This document shows positions 22,312 to 27,549 of a DNA stretch of 34,585 bases, one piece after another. Source of the DNA: Spirochaetaceae bacterium. GTDB taxonomy: Bacteria > Spirochaetota > Spirochaetia > Treponematales > Breznakiellaceae. Where the stretch lies: NCBI GenBank assembly GCA_031276945.1, contig JAISMB010000010.1, positions 1 through 34,585 on the forward strand, given 5' to 3'. Positions within the stretch are counted from its first letter, which is position 1. Every line of letters begins with the position of its first letter. The position numbers were made by a program, and so were the translations under genes. The notes under the pieces were generated by a model. The model did not search any database, was not told the origin of the DNA, and saw only the letters and a list, made by a program, of their open reading frames with translations.

Positions 22312-23217
22312 CTACCGGCTGCTCTGTGCCGTCATGCTGAACTCCGCCCAAATCGGATAGTGATCGCTTATATCCTGCGGCGCAATGCCGGCGCTGCCCA
22401 GATCATAGATTTCATCAAAGCGGATTACGCCGCAATTACCGGTATAATGGCGCTGAGCGCTCTTGGTAATAATAAAACGGTCATAGGTATTATTGCTCGG
22501 CGCAACGGTCGTATCGTATTCGTTGCCTATCACACTGTAATACTGCTCAGGCGGGAAGACGAGCGCCAATGCCTCTTCATCATAATACGTGCCGTCCGCA
22601 TTAAAATCACCTAAAACCAAGACATCCGTGTCATGCCACAAGTCCTGATAGTAGCGAACAAGCTCAGGCAGAGCGGCAATCTCCTTTACGGCGTCCGAAG
22701 GTTGTATATGGTTATCAATAATAATAAAGTCAAAGTTACCGGCTGTAAAGTAGACTGCCAAAGGATTTCGCTGAAAGGTATCCTGCGGGTCAGGATAGGT
22801 ATGCTCACCAATGACCGTTACCATCGTGCTGTCGTAAATAATCCAGTACTGTTCTTTAGAGGCAGTTCTGCCCTCACGCGGACCTAAGACAAAGCGGTAC
22901 TGCGGCGGCAGCAGCGCCATGAATTGTTCAACCGGCTCGGTGCTTACGGAGCGGACTTCCTGAACCGCAACAATAGTCGCACTGGAAATGAGGTCTACAA
23001 GAATAGCAACCACGTCCTGCTTTGCCATCTTTGCCACGCCGAATATTTGAATATTAAATGAATATATTCTCAATGGCTGCGCGCTGCTCTGCTCGGTGTA
23101 CTCTTCGACCTCCGCGCTTGTTTCATTGTCCTGCTGCCGGGGCAGGATTATGAACATGACCGCAATGACTGCGAGTATAAACGCAATGATTCCGCCTATG
23201 ATTTGTTTTATTTTCAT
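22312..23217 (-). CDS. membrane-anchored endonuclease/exonuclease/phosphatase-fold protein
   Basis: A 301-aa protein with one N-terminal membrane helix (QIIGGIIAFILAVIAVMFIIL) and then a DNase I-like domain outside the membrane. The four metal and catalytic motifs appear in order: IYSFNIQIFG, VAVQEVR, VLGDFNADG and ISDHYPIWAEF, including the final SDH. It could be an extracytoplasmic nuclease, a phosphodiesterase or a phospholipase. The frame extends to 23256, but AGAGAGGA five to six bases before the ATG at 23217 (MKIKQII) sets the start. It is the first gene of a two-gene run with alpha-galactosidase, and no functional link between them is evident. Confidence 0.82.
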   Translation of the reverse strand: MKIKQIIGGIIAFILAVIAVMFIILPRQQDNETSAEVEEYTEQSSAQPLRIYSFNIQIFGVAKMAKQDVVAILVDLISSATIVAVQEVRSVSTEPVEQFMALLPPQYRFVLGPREGRTASKEQYWIIYDSTMVTVIGEHTYPDPQDTFQRNPLAVYFTAGNFDFIIIDNHIQPSDAVKEIAALPELVRYYQDLWHDTDVLVLGDFNADGTYYDEEALALVFPPEQYYSVIGNEYDTTVAPSNNTYDRFIITKSAQRHYTGNCGVIRFDEIYDLGSAGIAPQDISDHYPIWAEFSMTAQSSR

Positions 23218-23291
23218 GGTATTCCTCTCTTTTCTGCTTCTGCTCTGCTTATTCAATCTGCTCCCCTCTCAACGGTCGGAAAGATCTAGGA

Positions 23292-23494: not shown

Positions 23495-24919
<1,425 letters not shown>

Positions 24920-24921
24920 GT

Positions 24922-25350
24922 ATGGCAGAACAGTTTGCTTTTGAAATACATACACCCTACCGGCGGTTTTTTGCCGGAGATATTGAAACCTTGGTTATTA
25001 TGCTCAGCGACGGTGAAATTGCCCTCTACGCCTCCCATTCTTTTTTTATTGCGCCGGTAGAAACAAGCATACTGAAAATGAAGAACAAAGACGGAGACTG
25101 GCTTTTCGCCTGTATCAGCAGCGGGATTTTGGAAGTAAAGGGGCATAATACTATTCTTTTGGTTGAAGCTGCCGAATGGCCCGCGGAGATTGATCTGGCA
25201 CGGGCGCAGGCAGCAGAAAAAGCCGCGCTTGAACGTATAAACAACAGCGAGTCTTTTAAGATCGACCGCATGGCGGCTCATGCCGCACTCAAAAGAGCCA
25301 CGACGCGCATCAAGGCGCACGCCTTAGCAGCAGGGCATACAGGTGCATAA
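24922..25350 (+). CDS. atpC: F1-ATPase epsilon subunit
   Basis: A 142-aa epsilon subunit, part of the rotor and inhibitor of F1. An N-terminal beta-sandwich (FEIHTPYRRFFAGDIETLVI, FIAPVETSILKM, SGILEVKGHNTILLVEAAEW) leads to the C-terminal helical hairpin rich in Ala, Arg and Lys (ARAQAAEKAALERI, HAALKRATTRIKA). It begins two bases after the atpD stop with AAGGGG as the ribosome site, and its stop lies inside the next coding region (8-base overlap). The pair beta-epsilon in this order is typical of F-type operons. Confidence 0.93.
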   Translation: MAEQFAFEIHTPYRRFFAGDIETLVIMLSDGEIALYASHSFFIAPVETSILKMKNKDGDWLFACISSGILEVKGHNTILLVEAAEWPAEIDLARAQAAEKAALERINNSESFKIDRMAAHAALKRATTRIKAHALAAGHTGA

Positions 25351-27256
25351 GCCGGTTGCGTTTGATACCACAATCATGCTTAAAATGCTCCTCCCCTTCT
25401 GTGCAGCTTTTGCCGGTATGGTTTACCTTATTCTGCTCTTACAAGGACCAAAGCTTGGTTTTTACTATGATTTCTTGAATAGGAGCGCGCTCAGTCCGCA
25501 GGCTCTGCAAAATATAGTACTGATCGAGACGGACAGCCATAATCCTGAACAACAAACAGGCAGTGTTGATCTTGCCTTGTTCGTCTCCCTGCTCCTCGAT
25601 CTTATCGAGATAGGCGCTGAATCACTCGTAGTGCAAGTGCCGATTTATGCGCAGCAGCCCTCTGAGCCGGAGGCGCATACTACTATAACAAATATAACAA
25701 ACGAAGTATTTGCAGCAATGACGGCATTTGGACCGGTTGCCATTGATGAAGCTTTTTATAAGATGAAGTACACGGATCCGGATGGTGTATTACGCCGCAT
25801 AGCGCCGGTTGAGCCGGCGCACTCTGCCCTTGGGTATGCCGACGGACACCGAGAACATCCTGTCTACCGTGTCTTAAAAGACAAGCTCAAAGAGAACCGG
25901 CACGCTTCTTATCCGCTTTTAGTACGCGTGCCGCGCGGAGATGCGCCCTTTGTCCGTCTGTCGCTCACTGATTTTATTACCTATGAATGGCTTGCCTTTG
26001 ATTTACAGCGGCTTTTGTGGCAGAGCGATAGCTTGGACATCTACCAAGGGATGAGCATTATGGAGCGCCCCAGCTTCTTAGGCGAATACGTTCAGTCCGT
26101 GCGGAACATTATGCTTGAAGCGCCTGCACCGGATTCCGATCCTGCTACGCTTAAAGAATGGGTACAAACCCTCGACAAGAGAAAGCAGTTGTGGCTCAAG
26201 GCGCGGAGCGCTTATTTTGACTCCATTGAACGGGTCTTTTCTCAGCATGCGGTCCAAGAGTTGCTTGCAGCCTATGATAAGCGCATCGCAGCGGCATCTG
26301 AACAAGAGCGAGCCGGTATACAGGCGCTGCGTAATGAAATAGAGGCGTGCATTGCCGGTATTCAGAAGACCTATGCGGCTCTCATCTATAAAGGCGGCGC
26401 TTTGCAGTCGCATCTACAGGGCGCTCTGTGCATTATGGGTCCTCTTTACACAGAGCAATACCCGCCGGCTTTTGTCTCGGCGGTCTTGGCGCAAACGCTC
26501 CTTATGGACAATGCGGTCAGCCTCGGTTCAAGGATAGTCATTGTCCTTTTTTCTCTTGCCAGTGCTGTATTGGTGATAGGCGTGCTGTGGCGCTTCTCAC
26601 CGTGCAAGATTGCCGGCTTTGGATTGCTCTGTGTCATGCTGATTTTTATAGGCTTTTCCCTCAGTTTTGTCGTAACGGCGTATTGGATAGACCCCTTTAT
26701 CCCCGCCGGCACCGCTGCCGCCGCGGTGATCTGCTCATTGCTCTATGCACTACAGCAGGGGAACGGTCGGGTTCTGGTAGAGCCGGTTACCAAAGACATG
26801 ATCATTGTTGCGGTACACGATACAAACCCCCACAAAGATGCGGCTTTGTTTCAAACAGAGATCGGACGCTTATTCAAAGAAGCCGGCGCTTACCTTGCCG
26901 GCAGCAGTGAAGATACCATCTTTATTGCCTTTGAAACAGCAGCAAAAGCAAAAAGCCCGGCACAACGGGCTGCCACTTGTATTATGAACATCGTGCGCAA
27001 CCAAACAGAAAGTGCCCACTGGCGGTTTGGTCTTGATGCTGGACCGGTAAGCCTCAAGCAGATCGATAAAGAGTGGCAGGTTTCAGGCAATCCGGTCAAT
27101 CAGGCGAAGCTCCTTGCCCTGCTTGCTCCCCGCTACCAAGCCCATGCGCTCATAAGTGAACGGGCGTATAAAGGACTACACATGGCTGTCCAACAACTTG
27201 GCAGTCTGGAATCCAGCAGCAATACGCCCGAAGATTCATTTTATCAACTGTTCTAA
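25343..27256 (+). CDS. CHASE2 sensor protein with degenerate class III cyclase domain
   Basis: A 637-aa membrane protein. Order: one membrane helix (residues 12-34), an extracytoplasmic CHASE2-like domain to about residue 390 (VLIETDSHNPEQ, YTDPDGVLRRIAPV), three membrane helices (IVIVLFSLASAVLVIGVLW; IAGFGLLCVMLIFIGFSL; GTAAAAVICSLLYALQ), then a cytoplasmic cyclase-like domain from about 478. Within that, EDTIFIAF retains the second metal Asp and GNPVNQAKLL keeps the substrate Asn, but the catalytic Arg expected after it (as in VNxAaRL) is replaced and the first metal motif FxDI is lost. It is probably a non-catalytic sensor or adaptor. The GTG start overlaps atpC by eight bases; a later ATG at 25376 is possible. 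Translation coupling to the F1 genes is the notable context. Confidence 0.75.
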   Translation: MHKPVAFDTTIMLKMLLPFCAAFAGMVYLILLLQGPKLGFYYDFLNRSALSPQALQNIVLIETDSHNPEQQTGSVDLALFVSLLLDLIEIGAESLVVQVPIYAQQPSEPEAHTTITNITNEVFAAMTAFGPVAIDEAFYKMKYTDPDGVLRRIAPVEPAHSALGYADGHREHPVYRVLKDKLKENRHASYPLLVRVPRGDAPFVRLSLTDFITYEWLAFDLQRLLWQSDSLDIYQGMSIMERPSFLGEYVQSVRNIMLEAPAPDSDPATLKEWVQTLDKRKQLWLKARSAYFDSIERVFSQHAVQELLAAYDKRIAAASEQERAGIQALRNEIEACIAGIQKTYAALIYKGGALQSHLQGALCIMGPLYTEQYPPAFVSAVLAQTLLMDNAVSLGSRIVIVLFSLASAVLVIGVLWRFSPCKIAGFGLLCVMLIFIGFSLSFVVTAYWIDPFIPAGTAAAAVICSLLYALQQGNGRVLVEPVTKDMIIVAVHDTNPHKDAALFQTEIGRLFKEAGAYLAGSSEDTIFIAFETAAKAKSPAQRAATCIMNIVRNQTESAHWRFGLDAGPVSLKQIDKEWQVSGNPVNQAKLLALLAPRYQAHALISERAYKGLHMAVQQLGSLESSSNTPEDSFYQLF

Positions 27257-27549
27257 GACCACCTCCCGTCCTTATCAACGCTCTCTCATCTTTTCCCAAG
27301 GTCTGTCCTCTACCTACAAGACTTCGGCTGGTAGGTCAGACCTCGCCGTCAAAATAGTGGCGGGCGTTAGAGTACCTCGAGGACACCCCAATCACTCGCT
27401 ACTGCTCACTGTCCGCCGCTGGCTGAGATTGACCGCTGTCTCGTGCTTGCTTGCTATTATGCACAAAAACATCTCGACAGAATAATGAAATCAGGTTATA
27501 GTACAATAACTATTAACTATACTTTAATCCTAAAAGGAGACACACAATC
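27257..27549. other. 293-bp spacer with two palindrome copies, no gene
   Basis: Contains AAGGTCTGTCCT (27299-27310) and a full TAGGTCAGACCTCG (27333-27346). The rest is low-information sequence up to AAAGGAG before glgC. A TATACT at 27518-27523 and a TACAAT at 27502-27507 are present, but neither has a matching -35, so the glgC promoter is not called. Confidence 0.5.
27299..27346. repeat. two dispersed-palindrome copies
   Basis: AAGGTCTGTCCT (27299-27310, one mismatch) and TAGGTCAGACCTCG (27333-27346, full) in opposite orientation, 22 bases apart, between the CHASE2 gene and glgC. Confidence 0.7.

Follow-up and report, generated by a model that had tools for sequence, protein, structure and literature searches.

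The open reading frame directly behind atpC in the analysed stretch of DNA (34,585 nucleotides from a Spirochaetaceae bacterium, hereafter the window) encodes a protein, here called X. Sequence comparison and structure modelling make it fairly probable that X is a membrane receptor whose ancestor was a class III adenylate cyclase of the CHASE2 type and which is no longer catalytic, with an envelope signal as its input and a pseudo-cyclase domain as its output. Judged by sequence, the X family is a conserved, catalytically degenerate branch of the CHASE2 cyclases, in which the gene has moved behind atpDC in a single genus. The genes at the locus are as follows.

23510–24919, + strand: atpD, F1 beta subunit, which opens the atpDC-X run (TIGR01039, 808 bits against a cutoff of 463)
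24922–25350, + strand: atpC, F1 epsilon subunit (PF02823, PF00401 and TIGR01216 above cutoff)
25343–25350, + strand: 8-bp overlap between the end of atpC and the GTG start of X (read from the sequence; the same 8 bp in the congeneric genome G003)
25343–27256, + strand: X, putative pseudo-cyclase receptor of 637 aa with a GTG start (open reading frame, family alignment A3 and structure model)

The end of atpD and the start of atpC are separated by a 2-bp gap. Upstream of atpD lies a gene on the other strand (22312–23256), while downstream of X is glgC, with its own promoter-like site at 27474–27502 (promoter-like matches were near chance level, with 6 found against 4.7 expected in shuffles). 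Additionally, no terminator-like site was found on the + strand between atpC and X. Together, these three features make atpD-atpC-X a plausible three-gene operon. Two terminator-like sites within X were near chance level. The eight-base overlap of the reading frame with atpC, which a preliminary description had pointed out, was borne out by the sequence and recurs in G003, where the bases around the start are identical and the X protein is 64% identical; the start and overlap of X are therefore conserved and not due to chance. Judged from this overlap, co-expression of X with atpDC in the window's genus is plausible, and X is probably transcribed together with atpDC without being a component of the ATP synthase. 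The window's own genome (G000, a 2.18-Mb assembly of 152 contigs, 82% complete) contains a single copy of X. The F1 genes are split in this genome, with atpDC (window 23510–25350) located apart from atpA (contig C133).

A structure model of X was built with 38 relatives (mean pLDDT 87, pTM 0.69). It comprises an N-terminal helix, an alpha/beta region with a bundle, three hydrophobic helices (residues 397–474) and an alpha/beta domain from residue 480. The following regions were assigned.

25367–25438, + strand: N-terminal transmembrane helix, residues 9–32 (predicted helix; presumed to lie in the membrane from its hydrophobic sequence)
25448–26527, + strand: CHASE2-like region, residues 36–395 (homology to intact CHASE2 cyclases; presumably on the periplasmic side)
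25964–26416, + strand: predicted helical bundle within the periplasmic region, residues 208–358 (model; generic helical-bundle matches only)
26531–26764, + strand: three predicted transmembrane helices, residues 397–415, 420–445 and 452–474 (model; aligned to the transmembrane region of intact CHASE2 cyclases)
26780–27253, + strand: degenerate class III cyclase domain, residues 480–637 (Z 17.5 to CyaB, 3r5g, and 18.1 to Rv1900c, 1ybu)

The modelled C-terminal domain (residues 476–637) adopted the class III fold, with Z-scores of 17–18 against solved cyclases. The highest value was obtained with 8qfi (18.4), and the comparison with 3r5g gave an rmsd of 3.0 over 156 aligned residues. A Foldseek search with the model matched solved class III cyclases at E 6e-6, and in a search of PDB sequences with a profile of 39 proteins CyaB was the sole match at E below 0.001 (8.5e-4). 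In the Pfam and NCBIfam searches, nothing scored above cutoff in X; CHASE2 (PF05226) and Guanylate_cyc (PF00211) gave no Pfam match in X at E up to 1, and PF00211 was matched in 0 of the 39 aligned members at E up to 0.1. With the limit set at E 0.1, 5 of the 39 matched CHASE2, the best value being 8.1e-6, and two sub-threshold CHASE2 matches were seen in relatives. A profile comparison with eight intact CHASE2 cyclases gave a probability of 96.6 and an E of 5.2e-10, with the alignment extending over the transmembrane region and the cyclase domain. The family profile also matched three intact cyclases (L144–L146) at 159–166 bits over most of its length; these proteins score 88–113 bits for CHASE2 and 65–73 bits for Guanylate_cyc, both above cutoff. 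The residues D-P-D-G-V-L-R-R at positions 145–152 of X fall in a stretch aligned to an intact CHASE2, and a direct local comparison of the N-terminal parts of the X family and the L123 group was weak (probability 8.8).

The periplasmic part of the model gave no PDB match below E 0.001, and what it did match were generic helical bundles, so no known fold is named for this part. The CHASE2 assignment is based on the full-length homology to L144–L146 and on the sub-threshold matches in relatives, which support it indirectly. The preliminary description had proposed a CHASE2 and three-helix layout. Three transmembrane helices and a cyclase fold were recovered in the model, and comparison with solved structures confirmed the fold; the CHASE2 part, which stays below the Pfam threshold, is supported indirectly.

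Five active-site positions were considered, namely two metal-binding Asp, the purine-binding Lys, the transition-state Asn and the Arg, whose roles we take to be those general to class III cyclases. Motif positions in X were obtained from two agreeing alignments, and column counts refer to the 39 members of A3 (X plus 38 of 51 loci; the other 13 were partial, contained N, or were omitted to limit size).

26813–26815, + strand: V491, first metal Asp position (two alignments; V/I/L in 39/39)
26912–26914, + strand: D524, second metal Asp position (two alignments; D in 33/39)
27098–27100, + strand: N586, transition-state Asn position (alignment; among the 39, N in the window protein alone)
27110–27112, + strand: L590, transition-state Arg position, after K589 (alignment; Arg at 590 in 0/39)

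The first metal position is occupied by V in 30 members, I in 8 and L in 1. At the second, D is found in 33, N in 4 and E in 2, and the motif of X is ED where GD is usual. The purine-binding Lys position corresponds to G520 in X and is Lys in none of the 39. Outside A3, Asn at position 586 is also present in G003, the other relatives having mostly Val; as aligned here, it is not a family feature. The loss of the first metal Asp and the Arg, and the retention of the other Asp and the Asn, had been proposed beforehand and were confirmed by both alignments, with V491 and L590 at the two positions concerned; the purine-binding Lys is also gone. All 39 aligned members lack the first metal Asp, the purine-binding Lys and the transition-state Arg, and by sequence X belongs to a wider family of degenerate CHASE2-cyclase relatives.

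The alignment also bears on whether X could still be an enzyme with an altered active site that would rely on R/K589, a conserved position, and on non-canonical metal binding. Position 589 is R in 34 members and K in 5 and thus basic in 39/39; being one residue off the expected Arg, it could in principle replace the Arg in a shifted helix. Asp at 524 in 33/39, an invariant G582 and a near-invariant D565 would also fit an active enzyme, and in X an Asp, D493, is found two residues away from the first metal position, in a column with D in 9/39. However, the first metal Asp is replaced by V/I/L in every member and no Lys occupies the Lys position in any of them, and we regard this explanation as improbable.

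A loss of catalysis could alternatively serve a dominant-negative role, in which X pairs with an intact class III cyclase of the same cell and the mixed dimer makes no cAMP, because both subunits must contribute residues to every composite site. This is the main rival to the explanation preferred here, although we judge it unlikely. In its favour, the cyclase-like domain has retained its fold and both of its half-sites are incomplete, and two cyclases are encoded in the window's own genome, an intact CHASE2 cyclase (G000:C36) and another one (C117). On the other hand, in the search for intact cyclases, which covered 15 chosen genomes, G107 (99% complete) gave no match to a CHASE2 cyclase, although it contains a homologue of X and cyclase domains, which means that X need not have a CHASE2 partner.

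Homologues of X were matched in 121 of the 195 genomes of the window's family, a count that includes two weak matches (G030, 6.4e-4, and G135, 8.2e-4), and in 2 of the 4 genomes of the window's genus (the window genome and G003). G135 gave no match in the wider homologue search. The matched genomes are 55–100% complete, so absence from a single genome is weak evidence. Beyond the window's family, full-length homologues were found in G257 (family f5) and G195 (family f2) of the same order. The tally of the wider search includes intact CHASE2 cyclases and is therefore not a count of pseudo-cyclases. A single-sequence scan of genome contigs with X found no relative.

The tree places the X family apart from the three intact cyclases L144–L146, with f2_L148 on the intact side; its root is the midpoint, so the branching order is tentative. 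L148 (1583–4333, f2) encodes a 917-aa homologue with Arg at the usual place, Asp in place of Asn and a TPR-like tail, in which Guanylate_cyc was not called. From its sequence, it looks like an intermediate between intact and dead CHASE2 cyclases. The stem branch of the window protein and G003 measures 1.63 changes per column and is the longest internal branch of the tree. Both proteins lack a stretch of ~30 residues between the third transmembrane helix (TM3) and the cyclase domain, as well as a periplasmic NIRNLFEAIR stretch, both of which are present in relatives.

The long stem branch and the reduced length of X (637 aa, against 685–850 for most open frames of the best relatives) could indicate a decaying remnant that lies behind atpC by chance. 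Against this, the open frame is kept in two species, the start overlap is conserved, and dN/dS between G000 and G003 is 0.275 (dS 0.88); we find a decaying remnant scarcely credible. X as a pseudogene was rejected on the same ratio. The values for the cyclase-like part (0.26) and the periplasmic part (0.27) are similar to that of the whole protein, and those used as yardsticks were 0.18 for atpC, 0.057 for atpD and 0.105 for an intact CHASE2 cyclase. Selection on X is thus weaker than on the intact CHASE2 cyclase (0.275 against 0.105), and by these sequence-derived ratios X is maintained by purifying selection.

The position behind atpC had led to the suggestion of a pseudo-enzyme sensor linked to F1, in which X would respond to a periplasmic signal by regulating F1 (e.g., by way of epsilon). 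The 8-bp overlap kept in two species and the lack of a terminator-like site on the + strand between atpC and X are consistent with such a role, whereas the distribution of the genes argues against it. Both X and atpC were found in 74 genomes, of which 72, with both places known, were compared (G030 and G087 were left out). The two genes are adjacent in 2 of the 72, both in the window's genus, and lie on the same contig in 5; the three distant pairs are 204 kb (G004), ~0.83 Mb (G140) and ~2.3 Mb (G138) apart. Among 30 atpC loci, the family profile detected X in the window and in G003 and in none of the other 28. Co-occurrence of X and atpC was at the level expected for independent occurrence (74 of 195 genomes against 75.7, from 121 x 122 / 195), and among the 26 genomes with X that are at least 90% complete, 17 had no atpC match. 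Homologues of X also occur in genomes without an above-threshold atpA. In G010 and G152, which contain full-length homologues, atpA matches were sub-cutoff only and no atpC match was found, which indicates a patchy distribution of F-type ATP synthase within the family.

The atpD-atpC pair is common in the window's family and the gene after atpC varies, which also speaks against a regulator of F1; in genus g16 (L039, L046, L048), atpC shares 1 bp with another gene, a 303-aa open frame whose start resembles a signal peptide. Three atpC matches were observed in G087 (C156, C128), two of them ~0.8 kb apart on one contig. Given the rare linkage and the chance-level co-occurrence, a dedicated F1 role is very unlikely for the X family, and X as an F1 regulator was rejected on these counts; we assign it very little probability. 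A new role confined to the window's genus is conceivable. From gene order, the position of X behind atpDC is most likely a recent relocation within one genus, seen in two species. The earlier proposal therefore stands for the pseudo-enzyme, in view of the fold, the family-wide catalytic losses and the purifying selection, and fails for the link to F1.

A different neighbour was observed in the relatives. In 29 of 49 loci, the gene immediately upstream of X is divergent and codes for a lipoprotein with a DUF4398 match (28.4 bits against a cutoff of 27.9; for example, L086:114–833); 49 of the 51 loci were examined for this count, and several are cut by contig ends. The lipoprotein gene is also found beside X in G004, G010, G014, G138, G140, f5 (G257) and f2 (G195), and the divergent pairing spans three families of the order. 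In G152, the two genes are on different contigs, and in the window's genus the DUF4398 lipoprotein was not found (0 of 4 genomes). By its distribution, the pairing with X is old in the relatives, and its depth suggests that the lipoprotein and X share function or control in the envelope.

In the preferred explanation, a membrane receptor with a catalytically dead cyclase domain, the CHASE2-like periplasmic part and the helical bundle would sense a signal in the envelope, at first together with the lipoprotein or supplied by it. X would dimerise in the manner of class III cyclases, and a conformational change would pass from the envelope side through its transmembrane helices. The cytoplasmic pseudo-cyclase may then relay the signal through contact with a protein, or by binding a nucleotide that it does not turn over, and not through cAMP. 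Within the window's genus, the gene would have been relocated to its place behind atpC, the segment that separates TM3 from the cyclase domain would have been lost, and X would have diverged fast in genomes with no detected lipoprotein. As a tentative extension, which we consider possible but doubtful, the DUF4398 lipoprotein and the dead CHASE2 cyclase may form an order-wide envelope signalling pair without a second messenger, whose output is given by protein contact, with the receptor in one genus having parted from the lipoprotein and become integrated into the atpDC operon.

If X works without cAMP, it would provide a clean case of the cyclase fold used as a signalling scaffold, with the divergent lipoprotein as a concrete candidate partner. 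The case of X also illustrates that an overlap with atpC need not imply a functional tie. The literature searched yielded no description of a family of CHASE2 cyclases that is conserved yet catalytically dead, and nothing on spirochete CHASE2 adenylate cyclases, degenerate CHASE2 class III cyclases or CHASE2 in ATP synthase operons.

Among known systems, Pseudomonas aeruginosa CyaB (3r5g), which carries a CHASE2 domain, shares the fold of the cyclase domain with X and is its best PDB sequence match by profile. Compared with CyaB, X lacks the first metal Asp, the purine-binding Lys and the Arg; in the window protein and G003 the segment that follows TM3 and precedes the cyclase domain is also deleted, and X has an additional periplasmic helical bundle. 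Within the same order, the intact CHASE2 cyclases L144, L145 and L146 (880–920 aa) are homologous to X over most of their length, including the helical region. Unlike X, they keep the catalytic residues, have a longer C-terminal tail, and contain CHASE2 and Guanylate_cyc above cutoff. In Sinorhizobium meliloti, the CHASE2 cyclases CyaD1, CyaD2 and CyaK respond through the outer-membrane protein NsrA (PMC13001267), which provides a precedent for a CHASE2 receptor signalled via an envelope protein. In contrast to X, these cyclases are described there as catalytically active, and their partner is a beta-barrel and not a DUF4398 lipoprotein (PMC13001267).
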